Part shown: positions 44,974 to 63,466 of the stretch, piece after piece
Layout of the letters: each line of letters begins with the position of its first letter
How positions within the stretch are numbered: position 1 is the stretch's first letter
NCBI GenBank assembly: GCA_021307325.1
Contig: CP089931.1
Span: 186,001 to 250,000, forward strand
Direction of reading: 5' to 3'
Length of the DNA stretch: 64,000 nt
Source: Peptoniphilus sp. GNH
Lineage (GTDB): Bacteria; Bacillota; Clostridia; Tissierellales; Peptoniphilaceae
Notes under the pieces: model-generated
Databases searched by the model: none
What the model was told of the DNA's origin: nothing
What the model saw: only the letters and a program-made list of their open reading frames with translations
Made by a program: the position numbers and the translations under genes

Positions 44974-44999
44974 TGGCAGGGGTAGCAGGACTCGAACCC
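44974..44999 (-). tRNA. 3' end remnant of a tRNA gene (attL of the element), probably tRNA-Trp
   Basis: The minus strand reads GGGTTCGAGTCCTGC followed by TACCCCTGCCA: T-loop, 3' T-stem strand, 3' acceptor strand, discriminator G and encoded CCA. Sequence further upstream (to about 45050) has no anticodon arm, D arm or matching AGGGGTA acceptor strand, so only 26 bases remain. The tRNA ran right to left, so the intact copy should stand at the right end of the element. The CCCCTG-CCA end with a predicted AGGGG start fits tRNA-Trp of Firmicutes; the identity is an inference. Confidence 0.8.
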
Positions 45000-45032
45000 T
45001 TGCGAAACAAGGACAAAGAATGTGATATTTAC

Positions 45033-45046
45033 TGACTTATAAGTCA
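45033..45046. repeat. 14-base perfect palindrome near attL
   Basis: TGACTTATAAGTCA, 34 bases inside the element from the tRNA remnant. It could be a binding site for integrase arm domains or the excisionase; nothing else supports this. Confidence 0.4.
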
Positions 45047-45247
45047 ATAAAAAAAATAAATGGTGGGAAACACATTTTATATTAAAAAAAAATACATCTC
45101 TTGGAGAGTGCTTGAACACTAATTTTTTTAAATTCTAAACTATTTAGAAAAATAAAAATATAATTTTGAATGTAAATTTGAAATTAAAAATTATTAAAAA
45201 AATAAAAGAATTTCCTTATAAAATTGTAATGCTAGATGGCATTTTTT

Positions 45248-45280
45248 AATACTGCTTGAATTTATGCAAGCAGTATTTTT
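45248..45280 (+). terminator. plus-strand terminator inside the left end
   Basis: AATACTGCTTG, loop AATTTATG, CAAGCAGTATT and a TTT run. The T run is only on the plus-strand side, so it does not end the repressor gene; it would stop transcripts entering the element across attL, or across attP in the circular form. Confidence 0.75.
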
Positions 45281-45281
45281 A

Positions 45282-45800
45282 TTATCTATCTAGCATATTT
45301 TTTTTATTTTTTGTTACTTCTGATAAATCATCTAAGCGAGATAATTTTCTTCCTGATTTAATTTCAAGCTCTAGTTCTCGTCTATAAGCTTCAACCTCTC
45401 TATCAATTCTTTCTCTTATAATATCTTCTTCAGATCTATTTTTAAAATTTTCTGCAATTGATCGAACATATTCTATTATTGCTTCTCTTTTTTCTGGGCT
45501 TAATTCTAAAAAAGCTTCAACAACTTTAATTCCCATATCGTCTAAGGCATATTGTTTGGCAAGTTCTGATAAGTGAGAATTCTTACTTTTGTCAAACATT
45601 TTATCCTCTCCATAGCGTAACCAATTTTCATTTACATTGAACTCACGAGAAACGGATTTAATAACTTGATCTGTTAAAGCACGTCTTCCTTTTTCTATAT
45701 TTCCTATTGCACTTCCAGTTACTCCTATTCGTTCTCCAAATTTTTCTAGTGTAAGATTTAATTTTTTTCTGAGAAGTGCAAGTCTTTCATTTTCGTTCAT
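45282..45800 (-). CDS. XRE-family repressor of the mobile element
   Basis: 172 residues. N-terminal Cro/CI HTH (about 1-65: LLRKKLNLTLEKFGERIGVTGSAIGNIEKGRR), a short linker, then a helical charged C-terminal part (VEAFLELSPEKREAIIEYVRS, later EEDIIRERIDREVEAYRRELELE) with no peptidase or LexA-like domain, so it is not self-cleaving. It is divergent from the early genes with operators between, like phage cI. AAAGGGG precedes the ATG by six bases on the minus strand. Its release from DNA would need an anti-repressor or a protease (ImmA type) not seen here. Confidence 0.93.
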   Translation of the reverse strand: MNENERLALLRKKLNLTLEKFGERIGVTGSAIGNIEKGRRALTDQVIKSVSREFNVNENWLRYGEDKMFDKSKNSHLSELAKQYALDDMGIKVVEAFLELSPEKREAIIEYVRSIAENFKNRSEEDIIRERIDREVEAYRRELELEIKSGRKLSRLDDLSEVTKNKKNMLDR

Positions 45801-45821
45801 TTCATTCCCCTTTCTACAACA

Positions 45822-45850
45822 ATTATATGGGTTTTAAGCTAAAAAATCAA
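45822..45850 (-). promoter_or_regulatory. repressor promoter
   Basis: On the minus strand, TTGATT (45850-45845), 17-base spacer, TATAAT (45827-45822), ahead of the repressor ribosome binding site. Confidence 0.75.
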
Positions 45851-45860
45851 GTTAATCATG

Positions 45861-45921
45861 TTCTAAGAATAAAAAACGCTTGACATATCATTCTTAGTTT
45901 AATATACTCTATTCAAAGAAT
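45861..45921. promoter_or_regulatory. three operator-like sites in the divergent switch
   Basis: TTCTAAGAAT (45861-45870), ATTCTTAGTT (45890-45899, inverted copy with 8 of 10 matches) and TTCAAAGAAT (45912-45921, 9 of 10). The first and third have TTC-N3-GAA symmetry. The second overlaps the spacer of the early promoter, the third lies just past its -10, and the first lies between the two -35 boxes. This is the expected layout for repressor binding. Confidence 0.65.
45880..45908 (+). promoter_or_regulatory. early promoter of the mobile element
   Basis: TTGACA (45880-45885), 17-base spacer, TATACT (45903-45908). Near-consensus, overlapped by operator-like repeats, so it should be strong but repressed. 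Confidence 0.85.
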
Positions 45922-45939
45922 AGATAAAGGGGAATGATT

Positions 45940-46104
45940 ATGAATACCAGAGAATCAAAAATAGCAAGTTATACCAGAGAAGAAAAAGTATCTTCAAAAG
46001 AGTTTGTAAGATATTTTAAAAGACTGTCCCAAAAAGAGCAGGAAAAAATTTTATACATAATTAAGGGAGCTGCACTTGTAACGGACAAAGAAATTATTAA
46101 TTAA
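45940..46104 (+). CDS. small early protein (54 residues), unknown
   Basis: The first gene after the repressed early promoter. ATG at 45940 behind AAAGGGGAATG. The protein begins MNTRESKIASYTREEKVSS and continues KEFVRYFKRLSQKEQEKIL, then a hydrophobic YIIKGAALV. The position mirrors cro or anti-repressor genes of temperate phages, and the KLSxxEQEKIL-type helix is similar to short ORFs found beside XRE repressors in Firmicutes elements. No DNA-binding motif is recognised. It may antagonise or modulate the repressor; this is inferred from position only. Confidence 0.75.
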   Translation: MNTRESKIASYTREEKVSSKEFVRYFKRLSQKEQEKILYIIKGAALVTDKEIIN

Positions 46105-46132
46105 TAAAATCAAAAAATGTAGAGGTCAAAAA

Positions 46133-46324
46133 GTGTTTAAAGTTTTAAGAATATTTTGGTATTCGCCATTTTTATCAGATTCAAATAGGATAGCCATAGT
46201 AAAAACTGAAAACAACGGAGAGATTCGATATCACATTGGTACAGTTGAAGGAAATTCTAGAGAGGAGCAAATCCAGCATATTATAAATTATGGGGACTAC
46301 TTTTATCCAGAAGATTTTCGCTAA
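46133..46324 (+). CDS. hypothetical small protein (63 residues)
   Basis: Start GTG at 46133 with AGAGGT seven bases upstream. The sequence (MFKVLRIFWYSPFLSDSN, IAIVKTENNGEIRYHIGTVEG) alternates short beta strands and ends in acidic aromatic residues (YGDYFYPEDFR). It is not recognised. It follows the 54-residue early gene by 28 bases without a terminator, so it is probably cotranscribed from the early promoter. Confidence 0.6.
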   Translation: MFKVLRIFWYSPFLSDSNRIAIVKTENNGEIRYHIGTVEGNSREEQIQHIINYGDYFYPEDFR

Positions 46325-46383
46325 AAAATTTGAAGTAATAAAAAGGTTATAGATATTAACAGAATAAGAAAGGGGTGTTTAAG

Positions 46384-46563
46384 ATGGAAAATAAAGAAAA
46401 AATGTTAGAAGTTATAAAATCCCTTGAAGGGATTAGTTTAACAGATTGGGAAAGCATAAAAAAAGCTTTAGATTTATATTTTGCATATAAACAAAAAGAA
46501 AATGCCGCCAATATCAAAATTGACGACATCACTAAACTTAGGAATTATTTTCAATATCGCTAA
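46384..46563 (+). CDS. hypothetical small protein (59 residues)
   Basis: ATG at 46384 with AAAGGGG nine bases upstream; a GTG at 46375 is possible but lies on the ribosome binding site. Two predicted helices (ENKEKMLEVIKSLEGISL, DWESIKKALDLYFAYKQKEN). Not recognised. Its 3' end overlaps the 3' end of the minus-strand gene that follows by 26 bases, so the two converge and may interfere. Confidence 0.6.
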   Translation: MENKEKMLEVIKSLEGISLTDWESIKKALDLYFAYKQKENAANIKIDDITKLRNYFQYR

Positions 46564-46792
46564 CTATTTGAATATGTACCCAAGGAATTGTATATAACTT
46601 GCCAAAATATTTAAAAACTAAAGACGGGAATTGATCCCAAGCGTGTTCCATATTCCTTTTATAAGGAGCATAAATTGGTGTTCTAGTTTTTTCCCATTCG
46701 CTGGGAGAAATGTTGTTGGGAATTATGACGCAGTTAGGATCGTCATTTAAACAAACCCAATTCCCAAGAATGCAAGCATAAATTTTAGACAA
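46538..46792 (-). CDS. hypothetical protein on the opposite strand with its own promoter (84 residues)
   Basis: The frame is longest from a GTG at 46801, but TTG at 46792 behind AGAGGTGAT is preferred because the GTG sits inside the ribosome binding site. The protein starts MSKIYACILGNWVCLNDDPNC and has SPSEWEKTRTPIYAPYKR and KLYTIPWVHIQIV, rich in Trp, Tyr and Pro, so it looks folded and real rather than random. It is not recognised. It is the only minus-strand gene of the element after the repressor. A promoter and a perfect inverted repeat lie directly upstream. Confidence 0.65.
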   Translation of the reverse strand: MSKIYACILGNWVCLNDDPNCVIIPNNISPSEWEKTRTPIYAPYKRNMEHAWDQFPSLVFKYFGKLYTIPWVHIQIVSDIENNS

Positions 46793-46824
46793 TATAATCA
46801 CCTCTCTTTATGAAGTGATTATAT
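46792..46824. repeat. perfect inverted repeat at the start of the minus-strand gene
   Basis: ATATAATCAC (46792-46801) and GTGATTATAT (46815-46824), 13-base spacer. One arm covers the start and ribosome binding site, the other covers the -10 box of the minus promoter, so a dimeric repressor bound here would block transcription. Operator function is inferred. Confidence 0.6.
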
Positions 46825-46845
46825 CATGGAGAATAATGATGTTAA
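46818..46845 (-). promoter_or_regulatory. promoter of the minus-strand gene
   Basis: On the minus strand, TTAACA (46845-46840), 16-base spacer, TATAAT (46823-46818); predicted start near 46811. Confidence 0.65.
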
Positions 46846-46879
46846 AAATTAAAATTTGAGATTTATTTGGAGAGTGCAA

Positions 46880-47110
46880 ATGGAAAATATAATTTCAAAT
46901 GAAGCAATAAACGAAAAGCTGGACTACTTAATAAATTTAGTAGCTAGCCCAGAAAAAGAAATCTTTGATATGTATGAGTCGGCTGATTATTTAAGAATCA
47001 GCTACTCATCGTTGATAAGAGAAGTTAATAAGGGAAACATTAGGTACAAAATTTTAGGTAATAAAAGACTATTCAAAAAAGAATGGCTTGATGACTGGAT
47101 GGAGGTATAA
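46880..47110 (+). CDS. excisionase-like helix-turn-helix protein
   Basis: 76 residues from ATG 46880 with GGAGAG seven bases upstream. The second half matches the HTH_17/excisionase pattern: DMYESADYLRISYSSLIREVNKGNIRYKILGNKRLFKKEWLDDWM, that is, a winged helix reading 'x-A-A-x-Y-L-x-I-S' and a C-terminal K-x-x-L-D-x-W-M end. Such proteins act as directionality factors or regulators in ICEs. It leads the 46880-48979 gene group, but no integrase is beside it. Role in excision is plausible, not shown. Confidence 0.75.
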   Translation: MENIISNEAINEKLDYLINLVASPEKEIFDMYESADYLRISYSSLIREVNKGNIRYKILGNKRLFKKEWLDDWMEV

Positions 47111-47112
47111 TT

Positions 47113-47610
47113 ATGGATTTAGAAAATTTGGAAGCCTTGATGAAAAATATTTCTGAATTTGATTTATTCTTTGACGAAGAAGATGTTGTAGAAGAAAAGC
47201 TGACATATAATATTTCAGAAGTTATTTCATCTCTGATTGTTGATATATTAGATTGTGGAATGAACTACAAGCATTTGATTGGTCAATATTTTATAGGACT
47301 TGTAAAAGGAAATGAAATTACAGATAAATGTAATATTCTTATGATCTATAAGGAAATTATGGATAATGAAGAATATGGTCTAATAGAATATTTCAAATAT
47401 TATTCAAGTGATAAGTTAAGATTAATTAGTCTTTTATCAGAAAATTTAAGTAGTCTTATTGATGTAGGATTTGATTATTTTAACATATACAATGGACTGA
47501 CAAATATAATTTTACTTACAAGATATTTTGAAACAAATTTAGAAAGATGTATTAGTGAGGCGATAAATTACCATATAGATTTAAAAAAACGTATAAATGG
47601 GGAAGTGTAG
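47113..47610 (+). CDS. hypothetical acidic helical protein (165 residues)
   Basis: ATG at 47113 with GGAGG seven bases upstream, two bases after the excisionase-like gene stop. The protein is acidic and largely helical (DLENLEALMKNISEFDLFF, SLIVDILDCGMNYKHLIGQYFIGLV) without membrane segments or recognised motifs. Gene packing suggests translation together with its neighbours, possibly in replication or regulation of the element. No family is recognised. Confidence 0.75.
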   Translation: MDLENLEALMKNISEFDLFFDEEDVVEEKLTYNISEVISSLIVDILDCGMNYKHLIGQYFIGLVKGNEITDKCNILMIYKEIMDNEEYGLIEYFKYYSSDKLRLISLLSENLSSLIDVGFDYFNIYNGLTNIILLTRYFETNLERCISEAINYHIDLKKRINGEV

Positions 47611-47616
47611 TTAGCG

Positions 47617-47898
47617 ATGAAAACAAAAACAAGTAAATTACTTGATATTCCAGAACAGTTGTTATATGACCAAAATGTGATACCAAATGCCAAAATTTTA
47701 TACAGTGAAATTATTGCCTTATCTGATAAGGCTGGAATATGTAGCCAAACTAATTCATATTTTGCTGAACTATATAAAGTTTCAAAGAGAACAATAAGTA
47801 ACTGGTTATATAGTTTACTAAGCAATGGCTACATAGAAAGTGATGTCATAAGAGATTCAAATGGAACAAGTCGCTATATAAAAGTTATGAGAGTATAA
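47617..47898 (+). CDS. helix-turn-helix protein, short paralogue of the initiator N-terminus
   Basis: 93 residues forming one HTH_36-like winged helix: PEQLLYDQNVIPNAKILYSEIIALSDKAG, then NSYFAELYKVSKRTISNWLYSLLSNGYI with the recognition helix KRTISNWL. It shares most of this region, at DNA level too, with residues 1-85 of the next gene, so the two arose by tandem duplication. It could be a regulator or competitor of the initiator. Start ATG at 47617 is weakly supported (GAAGTG upstream). Confidence 0.8.
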   Translation: MKTKTSKLLDIPEQLLYDQNVIPNAKILYSEIIALSDKAGICSQTNSYFAELYKVSKRTISNWLYSLLSNGYIESDVIRDSNGTSRYIKVMRV

Positions 47899-47902
47899 AG
47901 TT

Positions 47903-48979
47903 ATGGAAAAGTCTTACTATGCAATAATACCAGCTAATATTAGGTATGACGATAAACTAACAGCTAATGCAAAATTATTATATGGGGAAATTACAGCCTT
48001 ATGTAATGAAAAAGGATATTGTAAAGCTACTAATTCATATTTTGCTGAATTATATAAGGTTTCAAAAAGGGCAATAAGTAATTGGATTGCACTTTTAGAA
48101 GATTGCGGTTATATAAAAACAAAAATAATTGACAACAATGAAAGATTAGTATTTATAAACTTAAATGATGTATTAAATGATAATACCCTAGAAAATCCGT
48201 TCTATGGTGAAGAAAACTTCATGCCATCAAATGATAATTCAACTATAATAAATGATAATTACCCTAGAAAAAATGTTCTATACCCTAGAAAAAATGTTCT
48301 ATACCCTAGAAAAAATGTTCTATACCCTAGAAAAAATGTTCTATACCCTAGAAAAAATGTTCTATACCCTAGAAAAAATGTTCTATACCCTAGAAAAAAT
48401 ATTCTATACCCTAGAAAAAATGTTCTATACCCTAGAAAAAATGTTCTAGGGTACAAAAACACAGAAAACGTTGATAATAACGAGGTTACAGAACAATCGA
48501 CTCCAAGTGATGATATATATAATAATATATATAATAATATCATCAACAACAACAACTCTATAGTTGATGATGATAATAAACATAATGTAAATATATACAA
48601 GTGCGAAATTGATAAACTGCTTAAACGAAAATCAACAACAACCCAGATAAAAAATTTTATAGATGAGTATAGCGAAGAAACGTTAAAAGAGCTACTAGAC
48701 AGAATTAAAGAATCTACCTGGTTACAAAAAAACTTTGGATTTGTAAACTTAAACGATGATTTTTTGAAAATGATTTTAGTAGGCAAATACATTGATTTTA
48801 CAAGCAACAAGGGATATGGGAACAAAAAAAAGTCTGCCAAGGGGACAAATTCATTTCATAACTTTGAGGGGCATACAGAGGACTTAACAGCTGATGAAAT
48901 TGAGAAAATGGTAAAAGCTAAAAGGGATAAACTTCTAGAGCAGATTGAGTCTGGAGATGCAGAAAACGACCAGACGTAA
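47903..48979 (+). CDS. putative replication initiator with iteron array inside the gene
   Basis: 358 residues. N-terminal HTH_36 domain (about 1-85: NIRYDDKLTANAKLLYGEITAL, KVSKRAISNWIALLEDCGYI); middle with nine tandem heptapeptides YPRKNVL (about 120-182) coded by 21-bp repeats; Asn-rich linker; C-terminal helical domain (about 230-305: LKRKSTTTQIKNFIDEYSE, LNDDFLKMILVGKYIDF) similar in type to the C-terminal domains of plasmid and phage initiators; charged tail. The layout is that of RepA_N-like initiators, whose origin lies within rep. Start ATG four bases after the paralogue; ribosome binding site weak. Replication function is inferred. Confidence 0.8.
   Translation: MEKSYYAIIPANIRYDDKLTANAKLLYGEITALCNEKGYCKATNSYFAELYKVSKRAISNWIALLEDCGYIKTKIIDNNERLVFINLNDVLNDNTLENPFYGEENFMPSNDNSTIINDNYPRKNVLYPRKNVLYPRKNVLYPRKNVLYPRKNVLYPRKNVLYPRKNILYPRKNVLYPRKNVLGYKNTENVDNNEVTEQSTPSDDIYNNIYNNIINNNNSIVDDDNKHNVNIYKCEIDKLLKRKSTTTQIKNFIDEYSEETLKELLDRIKESTWLQKNFGFVNLNDDFLKMILVGKYIDFTSNKGYGNKKKSAKGTNSFHNFEGHTEDLTADEIEKMVKAKRDKLLEQIESGDAENDQT
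48184..48204 (+). repeat. outlying copy of the 21-bp iteron in another frame
   Basis: TACCCTAGAA-AATCCG-TTCTA: both arms equal the array unit and only the centre differs. It is 76 bases before the array start, so it is read one frame off (as TLENPFY instead of YPRKNVL). Confidence 0.75.
48260..48448 (+). repeat. nine tandem 21-bp dyad repeats (iteron-like array)
   Basis: Unit TACCCTAGAA-AAAATG-TTCTA, nine copies in perfect register with one base change (ATATTC in unit 7). TAGAA and TTCTA form a dyad in every unit, and 21 bp is two helical turns, so all sites face the same side. The last unit runs on into GGGTA, giving a perfect 10-bp-arm palindrome from 48428 to 48453. Confidence 0.9.
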
Positions 48980-49044
48980 AATTTGGCGCTTTAAATGCGC
49001 TAAAAAAATTAATGATAGGATGACTCTACAAAATAAAAATCGAA

Positions 49045-49065
49045 CGTCTAAACAGATTTTAGACG
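49045..49065. repeat. inverted repeat upstream of the DUF1492-like gene
   Basis: CGTCTAAA (49045-49052) / TTTAGACG (49058-49065), five-base spacer, 27 bases before the next start codon. No T run follows, so it is more likely a protein-binding site than a terminator. Confidence 0.5.
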
Positions 49066-49091
49066 GTTTAAAATTGAAATTGGAGGTCTAG

Positions 49092-49514
49092 ATGGGCTCT
49101 ATAATACGAGAATTAGAAAATGTTGCTTTTCTGAGAAAAAAATTAGATCTAAAAAAAGGGCAACTTGAAGCACTGAAAAAAGAAAGAACATATATAAAGG
49201 CTATTTCATATGATTTTTGTAAAAGAAGTGGCGGAAATACCGATCCAAACAAGCTTTCAGATAAAATACTAACTTTTGAAAAGGAGATAATTAGCGAAGC
49301 GGCGGAAATTATAGGCAGAATTAACGAAGTTAGAAGATATATAACAAAAATTGATGGAGATGAAGGGCTTGTACTTGAGATGAAATATCTTGAGGGAATG
49401 GATTGGCAAGAAATATCTGAAAGAATTGATAGGAGTCTTTCCCAATGCTTTTATTTAAGACGTAAAGGATTGGAGACTTTAGTTTCAATTGAAAAAAATA
49501 AATATTTAGTTTAA
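49092..49514 (+). CDS. DUF1492-like / sigma-region-4-like regulator
   Basis: 140 residues. N-terminal coiled coil (FLRKKLDLKKGQLEALKKE), basic middle, and a C-terminal sigma-70 region 4-like HTH: LVLEMKYLEGMDWQEISERIDRSLSQCFYLRRKGLETL. This matches DUF1492/phage ArpU-type proteins, which regulate late genes in phages and ICEs. Good ribosome binding site (TTGGAGGTC) and ATG at 49092. An inverted repeat lies in the leader. It stands alone between the initiator and the 49667 operon and may activate the transfer genes; that is an inference. Confidence 0.8.
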   Translation: MGSIIRELENVAFLRKKLDLKKGQLEALKKERTYIKAISYDFCKRSGGNTDPNKLSDKILTFEKEIISEAAEIIGRINEVRRYITKIDGDEGLVLEMKYLEGMDWQEISERIDRSLSQCFYLRRKGLETLVSIEKNKYLV

Positions 49515-49584
49515 CTTAAATTATTTTAAAATACACAATTTTAAAAATTAATAAGTGATTTAGTATAAAAAATCAAATTACTTC

Positions 49585-49613
49585 TTGCAAGATATATACA
49601 TCAGACGTATAAT
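49585..49613 (+). promoter_or_regulatory. promoter upstream of the 49667 membrane protein
   Basis: TTGCAA (49585-49590), 17-base spacer, TATAAT (49608-49613). Strong by sequence. Confidence 0.75.
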
Positions 49614-49666
49614 AAAAATGAAAATAAACCAATTGATTAATTATCTTTTAGTGAAGGAGAATGTAA

Positions 49667-50425
49667 ATGGGATTAGAATTTATACTTGGACCAATAGCTA
49701 TAATATTAATTTTGTTACTAATTGTGGCTTTAATAAAACTTATCCAATTCAATATTATCTATATAGATTTATTCTTTATTTTTTGCATAGGTTTAATATT
49801 GGGGTTAGGAATTTTCAACTTTATAGATAAAGACAACATGTTGGCATATGGATTGACAATTGGAATAATTTTTAGTCTAATCTTTTATTTTATAATAAAA
49901 CGAATTGCTAAAAGATCTGTTAAATTTTTCAAAATATATAATCAAATAATGTCTACAATAGCGGGATATTGTTTTACGCTACTAATAGCAAAGATTTTTA
50001 ATAAAAGCGCAAAATTTTTAGGCTTTTACATATTTGGTCTTACGGGTGCTTTGCCTATAAATATACTAATTACAGTAGTCTTGACAATCGCATTTAGAAG
50101 GTGGACTTTAAAGAAAAGACAGATGTTTCTTGCAGAAAATTATGATTACACAGAGGAAAATAGTCCATACACAGAAGAAAAAACTGAAAACTATATAAAT
50201 AATAATATATACTTAGATGAAAATTTAAAGACGTATTATGAATACCTAGATTTGCTCGGTTGTATGCACAATGATACTGATCAGACTATAAAAAATAGAG
50301 CTACATTTTTAATAAATAGGTACAATTCAAACGTTGAAGATAGTGAATTTAATAAAAGTTATGTTCAAAATATAAATGATGCAACTAACTATGTATTAAA
50401 TTATAGAAAATTCATGGGGAGATAA
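49667..50425 (+). CDS. hypothetical multi-pass membrane protein (252 residues)
   Basis: ATG 49667 with GAAGGAGA nine bases upstream and a strong promoter 54 bases before. About five membrane segments fill residues 1-145 (GPIAIILILLLIVALIKLI, LFFIFCIGLILGLGIF, TIGIIFSLIFYFII), followed by a soluble charged C-terminal part (from about 155) with YTEENSPYTEEKTENYINNN and a helical end. No family is recognised. It overlaps the next small gene by one base (TAATG). Confidence 0.75.
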   Translation: MGLEFILGPIAIILILLLIVALIKLIQFNIIYIDLFFIFCIGLILGLGIFNFIDKDNMLAYGLTIGIIFSLIFYFIIKRIAKRSVKFFKIYNQIMSTIAGYCFTLLIAKIFNKSAKFLGFYIFGLTGALPINILITVVLTIAFRRWTLKKRQMFLAENYDYTEENSPYTEEKTENYINNNIYLDENLKTYYEYLDLLGCMHNDTDQTIKNRATFLINRYNSNVEDSEFNKSYVQNINDATNYVLNYRKFMGR

Positions 50426-50634
50426 TGCAATTGTCAGAAAATATTAAAATAAATAAAACATCGCCATCTCAAATAAGAGCTAGCGTAAAATGGAATCAAG
50501 CAAATAAAGAAAAACATGATAAAATTAGAGGAAAATCAGCAACTAAAAAATATATTTTAGAACTTATAACAGAGAAAGAAGAACTGGAACAAGTAAAGTA
50601 TTGGATAAAGATTAAAGAAAATAATTTAAAATAA
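50425..50634 (+). CDS. small basic protein (69 residues), possibly ribbon-helix-helix type
   Basis: ATG 50425 overlaps the stop of the membrane protein. KTSPSQIRASVKWNQANKEKHDK and the following GKSATKKYILELITEKEELEQV resemble the N-terminal strand and helices of short plasmid RHH proteins, but the match is weak. Basic and hydrophilic, so a DNA-binding accessory is possible. A very strong terminator follows. Confidence 0.6.
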   Translation: MQLSENIKINKTSPSQIRASVKWNQANKEKHDKIRGKSATKKYILELITEKEELEQVKYWIKIKENNLK

Positions 50635-50650
50635 TATAGTGTTGATATGT

Positions 50651-50690
50651 AAAATAGAGATTGATTTTAATCAATCTCTATTTTATTACT
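50651..50690 (+). terminator. strong bidirectional terminator
   Basis: Sixteen-pair perfect stem (50651-50666 with 50669-50684) and a two-base loop, T runs on one side and A runs on the other, so it would work in both directions. It separates the 49667 operon from the genes downstream. Confidence 0.9.
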
Positions 50691-50709
50691 ATTATCAAGT
50701 ATTTTAATA

Positions 50710-51090
50710 ATGTTATTGGCAATTGCATTTATGACGGGAACAGCAGTACCTGAAGAAATGGGAAGAACAGGTGCTAGAGAGATGTTTTTAGCTACTCTTG
50801 ATACTTCTATTAGTTCAGATGTCTTGAATACACTATATGAATTTAATATACAAGTTACAACAACGAAAAATATAAAAGAAGCATACTATTTTGACAATGA
50901 AAGGGTTCTAACTTTTGAAAAGCTAGTTGAAATATGTTTAAATAACGTTACTCATTGGAAAAATTTTAATTACACAGTGGAACAAAACGACCAAATTATT
51001 GAGCTTGTAACTAAGCAAATAGAAAAACATAAAAATCATAAGTTTGTAAAAGAATATTATGACGAACGATTGAAAAATATAAAAAAATGA
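50710..51090 (+). CDS. hypothetical protein (126 residues), possibly truncated
   Basis: Open from ATG 50710, but no ribosome binding site is visible and it starts 20 bases after a strong terminator. Internal ATGs at 50731, 50758 and 50782 are alternatives; the last has AGAG just upstream. The sequence (GRTGAREMFLATLDTSISSDVLN, VLTFEKLVEICLNNVTHWKNF, IELVTKQIEKHKNHKFVKEYYDERL) looks like real helical protein, but the N-terminus may be lost. Not recognised. The candidate origin region begins directly after its stop. Confidence 0.5.
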   Translation: MLLAIAFMTGTAVPEEMGRTGAREMFLATLDTSISSDVLNTLYEFNIQVTTTKNIKEAYYFDNERVLTFEKLVEICLNNVTHWKNFNYTVEQNDQIIELVTKQIEKHKNHKFVKEYYDERLKNIKK

Positions 51091-51103
51091 TTGACTTAGA
51101 AAG

Positions 51104-51112
51104 TTATCCACA
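51104..51112 (+). promoter_or_regulatory. DnaA-box-like sequence
   Basis: TTATCCACA, a perfect match to the DnaA box consensus, eight bases upstream of AT-rich decamer repeats. Such a nonamer is expected by chance in a window of this composition roughly once, so the neighbouring repeats are what make it notable. Confidence 0.45.
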
Positions 51113-51120
51113 GATTTTTA

Positions 51121-51164
51121 AAGTAAATAATAGTAAATAATAGTAAATAATAGTAAATAATAGT
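51121..51164 (+). repeat. four tandem AT-rich decamers
   Basis: AAGTAAATAA followed by three copies of TAGTAAATAA and a partial fifth (TAGT). One helical turn per repeat, next to a DnaA-box-like nonamer: the pattern of a duplex-unwinding region of an origin. Confidence 0.75.
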
Positions 51165-51222
51165 TGAAAGTCATATATAATATAAGTGTATTAATATATA
51201 GATTCTAAAGACCAAATTTAAT

Positions 51223-51259
51223 AAAAAGAAGAAGATTCAAAGAGAGTCTTCTTTTTTTT
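51223..51259 (+). terminator. terminator in the leader of the transfer operon
   Basis: AAAAAGAAGA / TCTTCTTTTT stem with a T run, ending 25 bases before the start of the DUF3801-like gene. A TATAAT at 51176-51181 stands upstream, so a short leader transcript may end here; this could act as an attenuator. Confidence 0.7.
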
Positions 51260-51277
51260 ATTTCAAGAAAGGAAGTG

Positions 51278-51847
51278 ATGAACATGTCCATGGGGATTCA
51301 AGAAGCCATTATTGAAGCTGATTATTCTAGAGGCTTCATGTTGGCTGTAAAATTAAATGATTTATCTAGGGAAATCTTAAAAGAAATATTTTCTGAAGCA
51401 AATAATGAGCTTAAAAAAATAGAAAATGATGTAAAATATGCAGAATATGATGCTACGTCAGGTGAAAGAATGAAATACGAAAGAGACGGAGAGAAAATAA
51501 AAGAAAAATTAAAAAATGGAAGAATGAATTTTGGAATGACTGTAAATATCCCAGAAAAAGATGAAAAAATTTTAGCGGATATTTTCAAAGAGCATGGAAT
51601 AAAATACCGATTTGAAAAAATAGATGATCAAATTAAGGTATATATTCTAGCACAAGATAAAAACAAGGTAGAAAAAGCATTCAAAAGCTTTATAGAAAAA
51701 TTAAATGATTTATCTAGGGAAGAAAAAGCTCAAGATAAAAATAAGGAAAAATTTAAAGATGTGAAATCGAGACATCAAGAAAAATTTGATAAAGAAAATA
51801 GTAAACAAGATAAAGTTAAATTTAAAAATCAAGACTTGGAAAGGTAA
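51278..51847 (+). CDS. DUF3801/PcfB-like conjugation protein
   Basis: About 189 residues; starts at ATG 51278 or ATG 51284 are possible behind AAAGGAAG. A helical N-terminal part (about 1-80: IQEAIIEADYSRGFMLAVKLND) is followed by a small alpha/beta core (about 85-145: MTVNIPEKDEKILADIFKEHGIKYRFEKIDDQIKVYILAQDKNKVEKAFKSF, split here by position) resembling PcfB/DUF3801, and a very basic tail. PcfB-like proteins work with the coupling protein and relaxase at oriT. It begins the transfer operon. Family match is by pattern only. Confidence 0.65.
   Translation: MNMSMGIQEAIIEADYSRGFMLAVKLNDLSREILKEIFSEANNELKKIENDVKYAEYDATSGERMKYERDGEKIKEKLKNGRMNFGMTVNIPEKDEKILADIFKEHGIKYRFEKIDDQIKVYILAQDKNKVEKAFKSFIEKLNDLSREEKAQDKNKEKFKDVKSRHQEKFDKENSKQDKVKFKNQDLER
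51791..51813 (+). repeat. direct repeat, copy 1 (shared 3' end of two transfer genes)
   Basis: A 23-base stretch AAAGAAAATAGTAAACAAG-ATAA that recurs exactly at 52584-52606. Both copies lie near the 3' ends of genes and encode the tail KENSKQDK, so it may come from a duplication or recombination at gene ends. Confidence 0.7.
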
Positions 51848-51851
51848 GCGT

Positions 51852-52040
51852 ATGAGATTTAAAAAAAATGACAACTATATAAAAGTTTTTATTTCCAGCA
51901 TTTTATGTGCTGGATTTATTTATGAAATATATAAAAGAACAATGGAAGACAGAATGAGAGAAATAGCAAGGGAGGAGATTATAAATTTAGACGATCCATT
52001 AAATAGAGAGTTTTACAGCAAAGGGTATGACGAGTTTTAG
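51852..52040 (+). CDS. small membrane protein (62 residues)
   Basis: ATG 51852 with GGAAAGGTAAG upstream; longer frames through the preceding gene are shadow. One hydrophobic segment (YIKVFISSILCAGFIYEIY, about 10-28) and a hydrophilic C-terminal part (RMREIAREEIINLDDPLNREFY). Not recognised. Placed between two transfer-type genes with four and 21-base gaps, so it is probably part of the machinery. Confidence 0.6.
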   Translation: MRFKKNDNYIKVFISSILCAGFIYEIYKRTMEDRMREIAREEIINLDDPLNREFYSKGYDEF

Positions 52041-52061
52041 AACAAGAAAGGAGATGTAAAA

Positions 52062-52634
52062 ATGAACGCAAAAGAAATAAAAGAAACTTTAGATGAGCTA
52101 TTCACATCAAATTACAAAGAAACAATAAAAGCCTTAATCTCTTATGAAACTGGCTTAAACAATGAAAAAAAATTAGAAGAAATTTATGAGAAATATGCCA
52201 ATAGTGATACGTTTGATCTATTATCTAAAGAAATACTTGATATGGTAAATGGTAATAACATAGAAAGGGAACAAAAGGATATAAAACAAAAAGATTCAAT
52301 CGGAATTTCTGGTAATCTTTTGGCAGACCCAGAAATTAAATCACTTAGCATAAATGGTGAAAATATAAAGGTTGCAAATTTCACAATTGTAGCAAAAGAT
52401 GATAAAGGAGAAAAAAACTATTACAATGTTTCAGCCTATGGAGAAAAAATAAAAGACATTTCTCAATTTAAAAAATCGGATTTTGTAAATATTTTTGGTA
52501 AAGAAAAGATAAGCAAATCAAAAGATGGAAAAGAATATAAAAATATAAAATTATTGAAAGCAAAAATGCTAAAAGAATTTAGCAAAGAAAATAGTAAACA
52601 AGATAAGGCAAAGGATAATTCTATGGAACGATGA
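52062..52634 (+). CDS. single-strand DNA-binding (OB-fold) protein with extra N-terminal domain
   Basis: 190 residues. Residues about 82-170 form an SSB-type OB fold: SIGISGNLLADPEIKSLSINGENIKVANFTIVAK, VSAYGEKIKDISQFKKSDFVNIFGKE and KDGKEYKNIKLLKAKML in strand order. Residues 1-75 form a separate helical domain (LDELFTSNYKETIKALISYETGLNNEKKLEEIYEKY) that I do not recognise; normal SSBs start at the OB fold. The C-terminal tail shares KENSKQDK with the DUF3801-like protein instead of the acidic DDDIPF-type tip. It may coat transferred strands or link them to the coupling protein. Confidence 0.8.
   Translation: MNAKEIKETLDELFTSNYKETIKALISYETGLNNEKKLEEIYEKYANSDTFDLLSKEILDMVNGNNIEREQKDIKQKDSIGISGNLLADPEIKSLSINGENIKVANFTIVAKDDKGEKNYYNVSAYGEKIKDISQFKKSDFVNIFGKEKISKSKDGKEYKNIKLLKAKMLKEFSKENSKQDKAKDNSMER
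52584..52606 (+). repeat. direct repeat, copy 2
   Basis: Exact second copy of the 23-base stretch at 51791-51813. Confidence 0.7.
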
Positions 52635-52635
52635 A

Positions 52636-54639
52636 ATGAACAAAATTTTAGAAGGAATAAAAGGCGACTTAAACAGTCTAATACAGTCTAAAAAAAACGA
52701 CCTAAAAGATATTAGCAAAAAGGATCTATTTATAAAAAATTTTCCTTATTTGCTTATTTTTTTCTTTCTGAACAGATTTTTTTATATATATTTAGAACTT
52801 GGATTCTGGCAGTCTTTTAAAAATTTGAACACAATTTTTACAATGGATATGGAGCTATTTCCAATAGGAAAGAGCTTATTATATAGCTTAATAGGAACTA
52901 TGGCTTTAAAAATAGCTGTACTATATAAATTAAAAAACGCAAGAAAGTTCAGAAAGGGTGAGGAGTATGGATCAGCGAGATGGGCTAAGTCCAATGAGAT
53001 AAAACCGTTTATAGATTTAGAAAACCCTGATAATAACATAATATTGACAAAAACAGAAGTATTAACAATGGAAGAAAGACTACCAAAACGCAAGATAGCA
53101 TATTCCAGAAATAAAAATGTACTTGTAATTGGTGGCTCAGGCTCAGGTAAAACACGTTTTTTTGTAAAGCCAAATCTTATGCAGCTTCACTCCTCATATG
53201 TTGTAACTGATCCTAAAGGTAGCTTAATCGTAGAAACTGGGAAAATGTTCGAAGATAGCGGATATGATATAAAGACATTTAATACTATAAATTTTTCGAA
53301 ATCAATGCACTATAATCCGTTTTCTTATGTAAAAACTGAAAAAGACATTCTAAAACTAGTTACAACAATAATGGTAAACACTAAGGGAGAAGGAGAAAAG
53401 GCAACAGAAGATTTTTGGACAAAAGCTGAAAGGCTTTTATACAATGCTTTGATTGCCTATATAGTGTTTGAATTAAAAGAAGAAGATAGACATTTTGGAA
53501 CACTTATCGATTTGATTGATAATTCGCAAGTTAAAGAAGATGATGAGAATTTCAAAAGTCTAGTTGACTATATATTTGAAGAGCTAGAGGAGAAAAAAGG
53601 AAATATTTTCTCTGTAAGGCAATATAAAAAATACAAGCTTGCAGCTGGAAAAACTGCAAAATCAATACTGATATCTTGTGGAGCTAGACTTGCTCCATTT
53701 GATATAAATGAACTAAGAGAAGTAATGTCTTACGATGAACTTGAGTTAGACAAATTAGGAGGGTATAATGAAAACATAAGAATTAGAGGAAAAGAGCTTC
53801 TTGAAGGCGATAAGATCGATATAAAAGATAAACAAATATATTTATCTAAGAAAGCTTGCTTAAAAATTAAAAATGAATGTTCAGATCAATATTTTAAAGT
53901 TCAAAGACTTAATAAAAAGAAAAAAGTCTTATTTATCATTATTTCTGATACAGACGACACTTTTAACTTTGTTGTAGCAATGCTTTATACTCAATTGTTC
54001 AACTTACTATGCGATAAGGCAGATGATGAGTTTGACGGAAGACTTCCAAATCATGTCAGATGTATACTTGATGAGTTTGCAAATATAGGGCAAATTCCTA
54101 AATTTGAAAAACTTATAGCAACTATAAGGTCAAGGTCAATATCTGCTTGTGTTATCTTACAAGCTCAATCACAGCTAAAAGATATCTATAAAGAAAAAGC
54201 TGATACCATCATAGGAAACTGTGATACAACTCTTTTTTTAGGTGGAAAGGAATACTCTACACTAGAATCTTTAGAAAAAGTTCTAGGAAAGGAAACAATA
54301 GAATTATTTAACACATCTGAAACTAGAGGCAGAGAAAAATCAGCAGGCACAAACTATCAAAAACTTGGTCGATCTCTTATGAGTCAAGACGAGATAGCGG
54401 TAATGCCAGGCAATAGATGTATTTTACAAATTAGAGGTGCCAGACCTTGGTATAGTAATAAATATGTTTTAGAGGATCACAAAAGATTTTCTCAAACATC
54501 AGACTATTCAAAAAAGAATAATTTTGATATTAAAAAATACATGGATAAAATAAACCCAAATAAAATAGATCCATGGACAAAAGAAGTTACAGAGTTAAAA
54601 GAGTCCGATATAGAAGAATATTTTAAAACCTTAAATTAA
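52636..54639 (+). CDS. type IV coupling protein, VirD4/TraG/PcfC family
   Basis: 667 residues. Two N-terminal membrane segments (about 33-55 and 76-95), then the ATPase: Walker A GGSGSGKTRFFVKP (about 166-179), DPKGSLIVETG, and Walker B VRCILDEFANIGQIPKFEKL (about 473-492), then ILQAQSQLKDIY and GNCDTTLFLGG. It brings the relaxosome to the secretion channel and uses ATP. The start is ATG 52636, one base after the SSB-like gene. Length and order fit the T4CP of Firmicutes ICEs. Confidence 0.95.
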   Translation: MNKILEGIKGDLNSLIQSKKNDLKDISKKDLFIKNFPYLLIFFFLNRFFYIYLELGFWQSFKNLNTIFTMDMELFPIGKSLLYSLIGTMALKIAVLYKLKNARKFRKGEEYGSARWAKSNEIKPFIDLENPDNNIILTKTEVLTMEERLPKRKIAYSRNKNVLVIGGSGSGKTRFFVKPNLMQLHSSYVVTDPKGSLIVETGKMFEDSGYDIKTFNTINFSKSMHYNPFSYVKTEKDILKLVTTIMVNTKGEGEKATEDFWTKAERLLYNALIAYIVFELKEEDRHFGTLIDLIDNSQVKEDDENFKSLVDYIFEELEEKKGNIFSVRQYKKYKLAAGKTAKSILISCGARLAPFDINELREVMSYDELELDKLGGYNENIRIRGKELLEGDKIDIKDKQIYLSKKACLKIKNECSDQYFKVQRLNKKKKVLFIIISDTDDTFNFVVAMLYTQLFNLLCDKADDEFDGRLPNHVRCILDEFANIGQIPKFEKLIATIRSRSISACVILQAQSQLKDIYKEKADTIIGNCDTTLFLGGKEYSTLESLEKVLGKETIELFNTSETRGREKSAGTNYQKLGRSLMSQDEIAVMPGNRCILQIRGARPWYSNKYVLEDHKRFSQTSDYSKKNNFDIKKYMDKINPNKIDPWTKEVTELKESDIEEYFKTLN

Positions 54640-54672
54640 TTTTAATAAAGTCAAATATAGAAAGGAGAAAAA

Positions 54673-54975
54673 ATGACAGGATATGATTATATGGTAATGG
54701 CAGCAGAACATTCTAAATATAATGCTAATCACTGGTTTAGATATCTAAGCAAGGTCATTTATGAAGACTCAATCTATATTGATGATGATACTTTCAATAA
54801 GCTATACAAATCAAATAAGCTCACAAAATATCAAAAAGTGACTTTAAAATTAGCCATCAAAAAAGGAAGTAGCGTAAATGAATGCGTAATAAGCCTTAAC
54901 AAGCCAGCTAAACTCAAAAACCTACAAGAATATTTTAAAAGAAAGGACAGCATAATTGAGAGAGGAACAATTTAA
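54673..54975 (+). CDS. hypothetical protein (100 residues), upstream partner of the nucleotidyltransferase-like gene
   Basis: ATG 54673 with AAAGGAGA seven bases upstream. The protein is small and mixed (MTGYDYMVMAAEHSKYNANHWFRYLSKVIYEDS, then YQKVTLKLAIKKGSSVNE), with no HTH that I can place. It overlaps the next gene by 20 bases, which suggests translational coupling as in toxin-antitoxin pairs. Not recognised. It stands between coupling-protein and adhesin genes, a typical cargo spot. Confidence 0.65.
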   Translation: MTGYDYMVMAAEHSKYNANHWFRYLSKVIYEDSIYIDDDTFNKLYKSNKLTKYQKVTLKLAIKKGSSVNECVISLNKPAKLKNLQEYFKRKDSIIERGTI

Positions 54976-55558
54976 AAAACTAAATGATGAATTAAAAAAA
55001 ATTAATAGGGATCTCACAATAATATGTGCTGGAGGATATATTTTAGAAAAACTTGGAATAAGGACAACAATTGATGTTGATGCTTTTTTTACTTCCGACA
55101 AAGAAATTGATGGGATCATAAAAAAAGTGGGAGAAGAATTATCTATAAATTCAAGCAAAGAAAATTGGTTGAATAATTCAATACAAAATCTTAACGAAAT
55201 TCCACCCATAGAAGAATGTCAAACCGACTATTCATTTTCGAATCTTACTGTATATTCAGTTCCAGTAGAATACTTAATTGGAATGAAGATGAAAAGTATG
55301 AGGGAAAAAGATATATTTGATATAAGCAGATTAATAAAAATATTAAAAATAATCAATCCTGAAGAACTCGAAGCAAAACTTAACAAAAGAGGATTTAATC
55401 CAGATTCTTCAATTATATTAGAGTGTTTTGCAGAAGCCTATGGAATTGAATGGCTGAGCGATTATCTTATGAAAATAGAAGAAAATAAACTTAAAGAAGA
55501 TCTAAAAAAAGATCGGCAAAAAGAAGATAGACCTAAAGGAAATGATTATGTTAGATAA
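54956..55558 (+). CDS. nucleotidyltransferase-like protein (DUF6036/AbiEii type)
   Basis: 200 residues from TTG 54956 behind AAAGGA, overlapping the previous gene by 20 bases. Residues about 22-50 (IICAGGYILEKLGIRTTIDVDAFF) match the GG and R-x-T-x-D-x-D core of MNT-type nucleotidyltransferases; VYSVPVEYLIGMKMKSMREKDIFDISRLI is the typical following helix pair. The tail is very charged (KEDLKKDRQKEDRPKGND). Family members include toxins of AbiE-like systems, so this could be a toxin with 54673 as partner, or a harmless modifier. The function is not known. Confidence 0.7.
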   Translation: MREEQFKKLNDELKKINRDLTIICAGGYILEKLGIRTTIDVDAFFTSDKEIDGIIKKVGEELSINSSKENWLNNSIQNLNEIPPIEECQTDYSFSNLTVYSVPVEYLIGMKMKSMREKDIFDISRLIKILKIINPEELEAKLNKRGFNPDSSIILECFAEAYGIEWLSDYLMKIEENKLKEDLKKDRQKEDRPKGNDYVR

Positions 55559-55601
55559 ACCTCAAATAGCTTACTTAGAAAAATTGAAAAGCGAAAATTA
55601 A
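55548..55601 (+). CDS. possible 17-residue mini-ORF or gene remnant
   Basis: ATG 55548 behind AAAGGA encodes MLDKPQIAYLEKLKSEN and ends at the terminator. The good ribosome binding site is the only support. It may be a leader-type peptide, the start of a deleted gene, or chance. Confidence 0.3.
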   Translation: MLDKPQIAYLEKLKSEN

Positions 55602-55625
55602 AAGACCTTTAAAGGTCTTTTTTTG
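55600..55625 (+). terminator. intrinsic terminator before the surface protein gene
   Basis: AAAGACCTT / AAGGTCTTT hairpin with nearly no loop (TA) and seven Ts. It ends the 51278-55558 group, so the surface protein gene needs its own promoter, or read-through. Confidence 0.85.
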
Positions 55626-55647
55626 ATGCAAAAGGAGAATGTAAACA

Positions 55648-58600
55648 ATGGAAAAGAAAAATAGAATATTAAGCATAATATTGTCTGTAATAATGATCTT
55701 AGGAATTATTCCAACTAACATTTTTGCACAAGAAAATGTTAAATATGCTACAGATCCGACTACAGCTAAAGACAATGAGTATGTTTATATTGAAAATCAA
55801 AAATTAAAAGAAGATTTTTTAAGAATATTAAAAGATAGAAATTGCAGATATTCAGCAGGTTTAAATGGTAGGCAAGAAGCTCAAGTTTTACTTACAGACA
55901 TGAATTATGTAAAACCTTCTAATCAAAACGAAATAACTGTAAAAGAGGCAAAGCTGTTTAAAGCTTACCCTAACCAAACGAATGGAAGTATAAACACAGC
56001 TATCCCTGGAGATACATTTAATATTGTATCTCTTAAAGGCTTAGAATATTTTGCGAATTTAGAAGTTCTGGTAATAAACAATGGAAAAGTAAAAGATTTG
56101 ACACCATTAAAAAACTTAAAAAAACTCAGAATACTTTCATTAACAACAAGTAAAGAAATACCAACAGAATTAGAAAATTTAAGTCCTTTAAAGGATTTAA
56201 CCAATCTTTCAGCCTTAGAACTTGGGAAAATGCTTGCTAATTGGGGAAAATTTGATAACGAAAACTTGAAAATTAAAAGAAATAATATTAAAGATATAAG
56301 CTATCTTTCGAATTTAACAAATTTAAAATTTTTATGTATAGACGGTGGATATATTAAAGACCTAAGTCCTTTAAAAAATTTAAGAAACCTTAAAGTTTTA
56401 GCGGCACAATCTAATGAGATATCAGATATTTCAATATTAACTAAATTACCCAGCTTAGCTGGAGCTGAACTGTATAACAATAAAATATCAGACTTGTCAA
56501 AACTTACTGGTGCAATTGGTTTAAATTTAAAGGCATTAGGTTTATCAGATAACTTTATTTCAGATATAACTCCATTAGCAAATACAAATTTCGACAATTT
56601 AGATTTAAGCAATCAACATGTGGAAATTAAGGCTAACTCTAAGACTATTAAAAATCCCTTAAAAACACCAGATAATTCAAAGATAACTTATCAAAAAGAC
56701 GATACAAAGTATTTAATAAATGGTAATACAATAACTATAAAGGATACATCTAAAGAAAAAATAATTATTCCATTTGATTCTCATCAAATGGGAAAGTCAA
56801 CAACATTTCTTTCAGATTATTCTGGGCATATAACAGCTCAAGTGAGCAAAGAGTATAGTGAAAAACGTAATTTCAAAGGAGAAATATCTATACTTTTATC
56901 AAAAGCTGTCATGTTTAAACCAACTATAGTAGAAGAAAAGGTAACTATTGGAAGCCCTATTGATTTAACTGATAATATTAGCAATTTGCCAGAAGGAGCA
57001 AGCGTAAAAGATATATCAAACCCTAAAATCGATATTAACAAAATTCAAGAAACTAGTGGAAAAGTTAAGGTAACATTTAAAGATGGCTCAAGTGCAGAAT
57101 ATGAAATTCCAGTAAAGATTGAAAATATTGTTTGTGAAGAAACAAAGCCTCTAAAAGATAGGATAAGAGAACTTGAAGGACAAATAGGAGAGCTTCAAGG
57201 ACAAAAGACCAAGCTAGAAGAAAATGTAAATAGACTTACACAAGAAGTAGCCACAGCTAATTCTGACAAAGAGAAAATTACAAATGAACTTAATGAGTCA
57301 AAAACAAAATTAGAAGCTGCCAACAATAAAATAACAGAACTTGAAAGAAAAATAAAAACACTTGAAGAAGAAATAAAAACCCTGAAAGAAGAAAACGAAC
57401 AACTTAAAAAAGACAAGGTAGCCTTAGAAGAAGAAATAAAAACCTTAAAGGAGCAATTAGCTACTTGTAAAGAATCTAATGAAAAACTTCAAGAGAAAAT
57501 TTCCAATCTTGAAAAGGAAATTGAAACTCTAAAGGAAGCAAATGCTGAAAAAGACAATAAAATAAAAGATTTAGAAAAACAAATCGCTGAAAAAGAAAAA
57601 AACCTTGAAAATATTAAAAAAGAGCTTGAAAATGCTGATGAACTAATAAAAAAATTAAGAGCAGAAAAAGCAAAACTAGTAGATGAAATAAATGACAAAA
57701 AATCTGAGCTTGAACAAGCAAAACAAGATCTTGAAAACTTGAAGCAAGAACTTGAAGCTGAAAAAACTAAAGCCAAAGAAGAAAAAGAAAATTTACAAAA
57801 ACAAGTTGATGAAGTTAATAAAAATCTTGAGGACTTAAACAAGAAGCTTAAAGGTATTCAAGAAGAAAAACATAATTTACAAGAAAATCTAGATGCTGAA
57901 AAAGCTAAGACAGATAAAAACGAAGAAAAAATAAAGGATTTAGAGAATAAAATTGTTGATAAAAATAAACAAGAAGAAGAATTAACTAAAGAAAAAGAAA
58001 CATTAACACAAAAAACTAAAGACCTTGGGGATAAAATTGTAGAAAAAGATAAAGAAATAGAAAAACTTAACTTAACAATTACTGAAAAAGAAAATAACAT
58101 AAAAGGCTTAGAAACAAAAATCTCAAACTTAGAGAACGAAAAGAAAGACCTTGAAGAAAAAATTAAAAATTTACTAGATAAAGATAATTCTAAAGATGAA
58201 TTACTAGCAAAGCTTAACAAAGAGATAGAAAATTTAAAGGCTGAGTTAGAAAAAATCAATAAGGAATCTAAAAATAAAGATAAAACTATAGAAGATATAA
58301 AAAGAGAAAACGATCTAAAAGAAGCAAAAAGACTTGTAGAAGAAGCTGAAAAAACAAAGACAAAAGAAGCTAAAGACAAGGCACAAAATGCTATAAATAA
58401 GTTGGCAGACTCGGCTGAGAAAAATGCACTTCAAGAAAGATTAAATAAAGTTGAGTTGGAAGAAACTGACCCAAATAAAGATCTAAGAACGCAAATAGAA
58501 AAACTAATAAAAAAAGCTGAAAGAGAAATTGAAAAGAACAAAGATGTTTCAAGAACTCAGCAAAGAAAAATTGAAGATGTAATTGATGAAGCTAAAGAAA

Positions 58601-59472: not shown

Positions 59473-59479
59473 AGACAAT

Positions 59480-59512
59480 AAGAAGGCAAGATTTTTACTT
59501 GCCTTCTTTAAA
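59480..59512 (+). terminator. terminator after the surface protein gene
   Basis: AAGAAGGCAAG / CTTGCCTTCTT perfect eleven-pair stem with a seven-base loop, then a short T run. It isolates the adhesin from the secretion genes. Confidence 0.85.
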
Positions 59513-59535
59513 TTTTAAAAATTAGGAGGAATAAT

Positions 59536-59754: not shown

Positions 59755-59784
59755 GGGGGAATTCCTCTTATCCATTAAATTTTT
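59743..59784 (+). terminator. terminator overlapping the stop of the Maff2 gene
   Basis: Thirteen-pair perfect stem TTTAATGGATAAG / CTTATCCATTAAA, with the stop codon in the left arm, followed by TTTTT. The next gene has no other visible promoter, so partial read-through must feed the operon. Confidence 0.9.
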
Positions 59785-59795
59785 AGAGGTAAGAT

Positions 59796-60659: not shown

Positions 60660-60669
60660 GAGGTGGACT

Positions 60670-63454: not shown

Positions 63455-63466
63455 GGGTGTGTTTAT

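Follow-up and report, generated by a model that had tools for sequence, protein, structure and literature searches.

Why would a mobile element carry nine near-identical 21-bp repeats within the coding sequence of one of its genes? This question is raised by an open reading frame (ORF) at 47903-48979 (plus strand, 358 amino acids) of the 64,000-nucleotide stretch of Peptoniphilus sp. GNH DNA analysed here (the window). Judged from sequence, structure model and analogy to known systems, the array is quite probably the binding-site part of a putative theta-type origin that lies inside an ICE's own initiator gene. What we observed directly is the anatomy of the sites, their recurrence in relatives and selection on the DNA rather than on the peptide. 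If the proposal is right, this ICE has a plasmid-like origin alongside its conjugation machine.

The surrounding element is an ICE, as the initial annotation had stated, since att repeats enclose conjugation genes and an integrase within chromosomal flanks. Repeat comparison placed attL, a 26-bp direct repeat of the tRNA-Trp 3' end, at 44974-44999 (unstranded) and attR at genome positions 270199-270224, beyond the window; the insertion site is the tRNA-Trp gene and the att-to-att span is about 39.2 kb. Between the repeats we found a VirD4/TraG coupling protein (52636-54639, plus strand; PF02534, E 6e-61), a VirB4-like ATPase (60989-63454, plus strand; PF19044, E 3.2e-14), a MobA/VirD2-type relaxase, a tyrosine integrase, a topoisomerase and an NlpC/P60 protein, with an HTH_3 (phage-repressor-like) regulator at the left end (45282-45800, minus strand; PF01381, E 6.2e-12). 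Genes for methionine gamma-lyase and lexA are among the chromosomal neighbours, and other flanking ORFs are presumably mutS, mutL and miaA.

TRF detected 9.0 copies of TACCCTAGAAAAAATGTTCTA at 48260-48448 (98% matches), and a pattern scan recovered the same nine units, TACCC-TAGAA-N6-TTCTA, on neither strand in particular. This is where the first reading of the sequence had put them. The AAAATG centre then given for all units needs one small correction, as unit 7 reads AAAATA. Half-sites alternate in orientation at steps of ~10.5 bp. By arm comparison, the last unit is extended to full palindromic arms (48428-48453, unstranded); its 10-bp arms, TACCCTAGAA and TTCTAGGGTA, are perfect, and the earlier description of a perfect palindrome extended by GGGTA holds for these arms and fails only in the asymmetric 6-bp centre. 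TAGAA-N6-TTCTA occurs ten times in the window, every time inside ORF 47903-48979, versus a mean of 0.32 and a maximum of 2 in 100 shuffled windows. Across the whole genome (1.86 Mb) it is present at 15 places, ten of them in this ORF, and a reversed control pattern at ten places. The copy number of the array is the highest among the 198 initiators scanned.

The tenth dyad lies apart from the array (48184-48209, unstranded; pattern scan and translation). In its 21-bp core (48184-48204), TACCC, TAGAA and TTCTA are exact and the 6-bp spacer differs from that of the array. The outer arm is partly restored in the right flank, and on the reverse strand the unit differs from the 21-mer by two mismatches. 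It sits 76 nt upstream of the array and is thus shifted by one reading frame, encoding NTLENPFY where the array encodes YPRKNVL; the earlier observation of an isolated, frame-shifted unit with the same arms was therefore accurate. These data bear on the idea that the heptapeptide YPRKNVL is selected, as a flexible linker or binding repeat, and that the sameness of the DNA merely reflects recent duplication. A 21-bp period does preserve the frame, the units hardly differ from each other, and recent duplication explains the sameness within the array (98% identity) without selection. Peptide selection does not account for an outlying unit that keeps its arms in another frame, and in relatives the array periods are 22, 23 or 25 in 62 of 125 cases and the peptides differ widely (see below). 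We regard selection on the heptapeptide as very unlikely.

Downstream of the array, an unstranded 28-bp run of A/T only (48513-48540), picked by run length and a 12-bp repeat, is a candidate unwinding element; it is the longest such run in 44974-64000 of the window. DnaA boxes (TTATNCACA, at most one mismatch) showed no excess in 4,074 bp (3 versus 7.2 expected). DnaA-independent initiators do not require them.

The product of 47903-48979 belongs to an initiator family, as predicted beforehand. Its N-terminus matches PF13730 (HTH_36; E 4.7e-11, 42.8 bits, cutoff 25), one of the profiles named for checking, and its PHROG matches are replication initiation and DnaD-like helicase loader families. 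The RepA_N class, also suggested, was not borne out: PF06970 is absent from the Pfam matches even at E<=10. The C-terminal domain had no match in the Pfam search. An AlphaFold2 model built from a 28-row alignment (mean pLDDT 68.4, pTM 0.35) predicts a winged HTH (wHTH) at residues 1-88 (47903-48166, plus strand), a disordered linker at 90-200 and a helical C-terminal domain, surest at about 231 to 300, with a tail helix at 330-349. Mean pLDDT in the wHTH is 71 for residues 1-10, 87-97 for blocks 11 to 80 and 77 for 81-90. In this model the array, the outlying unit and the palindrome all fall in codons of the disordered linker. The top PDB matches of the wHTH are 4pql (Z 10.3) and 4pt7 (Z 10.1), with LexA tied at 9.9; Foldseek returned nothing at E<=0.001 for this domain (best E 0.011). 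The titles of 4pql and 4pt7 name an N-terminal domain of a DNA binding protein and an initiator, and we take both to be RepA_N proteins.

Directly upstream of the initiator lies a small HTH_36-only paralogue of 93 amino acids (47617-47898, plus strand; PF13730, E 4.2e-09). In a side-by-side alignment the recognition-helix stretch of both proteins is nearly identical, and from this likeness the paralogue is likely a competitor or regulator of the initiator. Small HTH-only genes directly upstream of an HTH_36 gene were also seen in L042, L053 and L105 (viral contigs plus one genome contig).

Are such arrays found in related genes? We sampled 12 annotated records (one unrelated), 80 viral contigs, 80 genome contigs and genomes of the same family, which yielded 189 HTH-bearing ORFs and 180 distinct HTH_36 genes for array analysis. 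A viral search with the whole 47903 protein gave no relatives. In named collections, HTH_36 relatives occurred in 82 phage and 15 plasmid records, and two additional plasmid records also carry HTH_36 genes; ICE-type genes were near an HTH_36 gene in only 5 of 88 loci (tblastn). One tblastn match, L018 (a Mycetohabitans megaplasmid), was left out of the family set, its 21-bp repeat being a different, GC-rich one. Read codon by codon, the records share a plan in which the HTH is followed by ACCC-box units and then by an AT-rich block; a clear array was not seen in L016 on such reading. The units of relatives consist of inverted arms flanking an A-rich core, and the arms vary from gene to gene (for example TTAAC, GACAA, TTGACG or GAAC).

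With a period of 18-27 and a score of at least 12 as criteria, 125 of the 180 HTH_36 genes contain an in-gene array, whereas synonymous recoding left a mean of 21.0 and codon-order shuffling one of 0.8. A stricter score of at least 20 left 32 arrays versus 5.8 in the null. The periods were 18 (1 gene), 21 (5), 22 (35), 23 (26), 24 (57) and 25 (1); that is, in 62 of 125 arrays the period is not divisible by three, versus 9 of 105 in the synonymous null (five runs pooled). Arrays scoring at least 16 (n=71) start at a median of 14 residues past the end of the HTH. Within 150 nt after the HTH we counted 4.82 dyads per gene versus 2.88 in the synonymous null (161 genes). Starting 50 residues further on, the counts were 3.24 versus 2.66 (147 genes), and the excess was lost at 100 residues (2.14 versus 2.27, 130 genes). 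We had added this looser count to a strict repeat test with one exact arm, a statistic too narrow for most relatives; the strict test still gave p<=0.05 in 38 of 161 genes (26 arms), and 19 of these 38 genes use more than one reading frame. Among the arms found by the strict test, some are rich in AT and could be part of the AT block.

Since 62 of 125 periods run the repeat through the reading frames, it is well supported, at the level of sequence, that DNA sites rather than peptides are kept across HTH_36 genes. The argument first made from a single frame shift, that DNA sites and not a heptapeptide are selected, thus generalises, as the mixed repeat phase of the relatives and the 19 multi-frame genes illustrate. 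Looking for frame-rotating repeats would be a simple way to test any genome sequence for such origins. The initial annotation had also proposed an iteron-like array inside the initiator gene; the array is real, although its placement is less singular than it appeared, in-gene arrays being common in initiators of phages and ICEs.

Two further ideas did not hold. A period divisible by three did not favour growth in copy number (median 1.8 copies for multiples, n=68, versus 2.0 for others, n=72; one-sided p 0.998); the two largest arrays, of 10.5 and 6.3 copies, both have a 21-bp period. TnnT is described as the DnaD recognition element in the part of PMC10201434 available to us, and the AT-rich block shows no sign of being a selected TnnT run (longest chain 4.03 versus 4.11 in synonymous shuffles, 158 genes).

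Dyads are also typical of operators, and with an HTH-only paralogue directly upstream of 47903, the HTH_36 proteins might merely autoregulate a replication/transfer operon of the ICE, with no origin involved. The position of the sites speaks against this: they lie about 280-550 nt into the gene, away from the promoter, and do so in related genes too. A GC-poor block follows them (in 146 of 158 genes the block 30-60 residues past the HTH has a lower GC content than the ORF), and several related phage genes carry a replication-initiator annotation and have helicase or loader genes as neighbours. We therefore consider a pure operator function unlikely and retain the origin as the preferred reading.

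How does this arrangement compare to known systems? For pSK41, the accessible portion of PMC5703833 describes Rep boxes located centrally in rep and a dispensable linker; for pPR9 it describes an HTH_36/pSK41 chimera in which an HTH_36 domain and its origin have been swapped in and whose rep region replicates autonomously. By analogy, pPR9 is the closest experimental precedent for the 47903 initiator: both combine a phage-type HTH_36 N-terminus, an in-gene origin region, putative in 47903, and a host-group C-terminal domain. In contrast to pPR9, which we know by description and not by sequence, 47903 resides in an ICE, has nine near-perfect 21-bp units and carries a DnaD-like tail in place of the pSK41 C-terminal domain. 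RepA_N systems (pSK41 and the TnGBS, Tn5252 and Tn1549 families) appear to share with 47903 a wHTH domain, linker-coded origin sites and a C-terminal replication domain; unlike them, 47903 has no RepA_N sequence match and its dyads have variable arms around an A-rich core. As far as PMC4701971 was available, RepA_N genes are known from Tn5252- and Tn1549-type ICEs, and replication is known for TnGBS elements. Phage HTH_36 and replisome-organiser proteins (PHROG 19658, 270 and 186; phages c5, 77, phi39:1 and Ceridwen) resemble 47903 in the HTH_36 domain and in having two to four dyad units followed by an AT-rich block at the same position. However, a loader or helicase gene lies next door in 7 of 7 viewed phage records, the ICE having none and carrying the DnaD-like tail; in the plasmid records L016 and L017 no loader or helicase is annotated next door. 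The design is a variant of the known in-gene HTH_36 origin, placed in an ICE, the array itself being unusually long and clean.

We then looked at 14 regions beside other ICE coupling-protein genes, two of which (L250 and L251) are the two ends of the Peptoniphilus sp. GNH contig itself. Nine of the 14 (L248-L250 and L252-L257) contain an initiator that looks like RepA_N and bears an in-gene array with a 22-23-bp period; the three of these searched against Pfam (L248, L250 and L254) were all RepA_N (101-107 bits). A 15-bp AT-rich repeat follows the array in five of the eight regions L248, L249 and L252-L257. L250, at the contig start, belongs to a second ICE in the same genome, and its RepA_N initiator (L250:1-774, genome 1-774) contains 4.2 in-gene copies of a 23-bp unit, while L251 contains no array-bearing initiator. 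A 22-bp array is also present in the proteins of L246 and L247, the L246 protein having no Pfam match, and L258 encodes an HTH_36 protein that also has DUF6017, with repeats of 30 to 45 bp. Since RepA_N-like, unmatched and HTH_36/DUF6017 initiators all carry arrays, the array keeps its place across sister ICEs and the DNA-binding domain varies. In-gene arrays are thus shared by initiators whose DNA-binding domains differ, both in phages and in ICEs. In L245 (7569-8551), the initiator gene is broken into two ORFs at a 22-bp array, as if the frame had been broken through a change in copy number. Tandem repeats between N- and C-terminal domains were also seen with other N-terminal types (L192, L193, L195, L196, L198, L202, L204 and L206).

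The C-terminus offers a link to the host. Residues 318-351 of the initiator (48854-48955, plus strand) are identical to the DnaD tail of its own chromosome at 24 of 34 positions, and the chromosomal dnaD adjoins a DnaI-like gene. A very similar tail, FHNFEGHT..., is found in three proteins of this one genome: the window initiator, DnaD (L214:9091-10095) and a Lin1244_N-type initiator (L213:12717-13628). Recent capture of the tail from the host dnaD was rejected, since at the DNA level the tail shares just 66% identity with dnaD and 75% with the Lin1244_N-type copy. Searching same-family genomes with a profile built from seven tails gave matches in 40 of 130, three of which were weak; these partial matches (G003, G006 and G008, E about 0.007-0.008) were dropped from the comparison, as were G127 (a short frame with a stop) and a duplicate of the G110 initiator. 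Thirteen tails are on proteins taken as mobile initiators, 12 of them by type and second-copy status and the one in the window ICE with annotated surroundings. By Pfam they comprise nine Lin1244_N, one HTH_36 (the window), one Rep_3, one unmatched (L193/L313) and one DnaB_2 protein (L321, matching DnaB_2 alone in a shortened frame). The Rep_3 plasmid-type initiator that ends in a DnaD-like tail (PF01051) is located at L200:1495-2655 on the minus strand.

Aligned to 36 DnaD tails, most of which were assigned to DnaD from ORF length and match rather than from a neighbouring gene, 7 of the 13 tails ranked the DnaD of their own host first. The other own-host ranks were 2, 4, 5, 12, 12 and 13, the last three from genus g36, in which the DnaD tails hardly differ from one another. 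Own-host scores averaged 123.6 versus 85.5 (sd 6.0) in permutations that ignore kinship, none of 20,000 reaching it. In the portions of PMC10201434 and PMC13326638 at hand, the DnaD tail of B. subtilis binds ssDNA and DnaB, and in that of PMC4909229 the C-terminal region of S. aureus DnaD binds ssDNA and PriA. From this binding, it is the natural inference by analogy that the tail docks the host primosome. A search of titles and abstracts found nothing on the array or on a host-matched DnaD tail, which does not prove absence. A host-tuned tail, if real, would determine the host range and might account for C-terminal domains of such initiators that are conserved only within host groups; if the tail is a docking piece, the ties of replicons to host groups become testable.

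A match to the own host's DnaD also looks like adaptation, and this bears on the possibility that the module is what remains of a phage replication gene, taken up by the ICE and decayed, with an array real in origin and now unused. HTH_36 relatives in named collections are indeed mostly from phages. Yet ORF 47903-48979 is intact, and sister ICEs retain initiators beside their coupling-protein genes, so that a decayed remnant is quite improbable.

Does the tail take the place of a helicase loader? None of the 193 ICE frames is loader-like, and none of the 13 tail-bearing elements (L312-L322, L213 and the window; 9.5-19.5 kb each, the whole element for the window ICE) has a DnaC/DnaI/DnaB-like gene, versus 9 of 14 tail-less elements (L207-L209, L211, L212 and L323-L331; 6.6-20 kb each; Fisher p 0.0006), in a search that would miss divergent loaders. 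In a post hoc cut, all 7 tail-less elements from hosts with a tailed DnaD had a loader, compared to 2 of 7 in hosts of genus g3. Nine of the 13 tail-bearing rows are Lin1244_N and hence non-independent; loader absence may be a trait of the Lin1244_N module. Independent contrasts are few (for HTH_36, this ICE against L207, L209 and L212; for the unmatched GW-type, L313 against L323-L326). Of the 137 tail-less genes of the wider HTH_36 set that had enough sequence downstream, 55 were followed by a loader within 1.5 kb and 82 were not; genes that have neither a tail nor a loader are thus common elsewhere. The mobile initiators of this bacterial family might be modular, with a swappable DNA-binding domain, an origin in the linker and a host DnaD tail replacing the element's loader. 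As nine of the 13 tail-bearing initiators are of one type, we put this forward tentatively and at somewhat less than even chances.

For the window ICE we propose the following course. The winged-HTH domain of the 47903 protein would bind TAGAA/TTCTA half-sites, roughly one per helical turn; HTH dimers would occupy the half-sites and a protein oligomer would grow along the array. The AT-only block at 48513-48540 would then open, and the C-terminal domain together with the DnaD-like tail would recruit the host primosome by a DnaB/DnaI or PriA route, a step proposed because the ICE has no detectable loader. In this way the excised circle could copy itself before or after transfer. The HTH-only paralogue probably competes for sites in the array and limits initiation, and the linker peptide would be mostly a by-product of the DNA sites.

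Two other genes of the ICE deserve mention. A 1274-aa protein (55648-59472 of the window) has several 21-bp repeats and, by eye, the look of a surface protein with leucine-rich repeats and coiled coils. A putative nucleotidyltransferase (DUF6036, 54956-55558) adjoins a small ORF (54673-54975), with which it might form a toxin-antitoxin-like pair.
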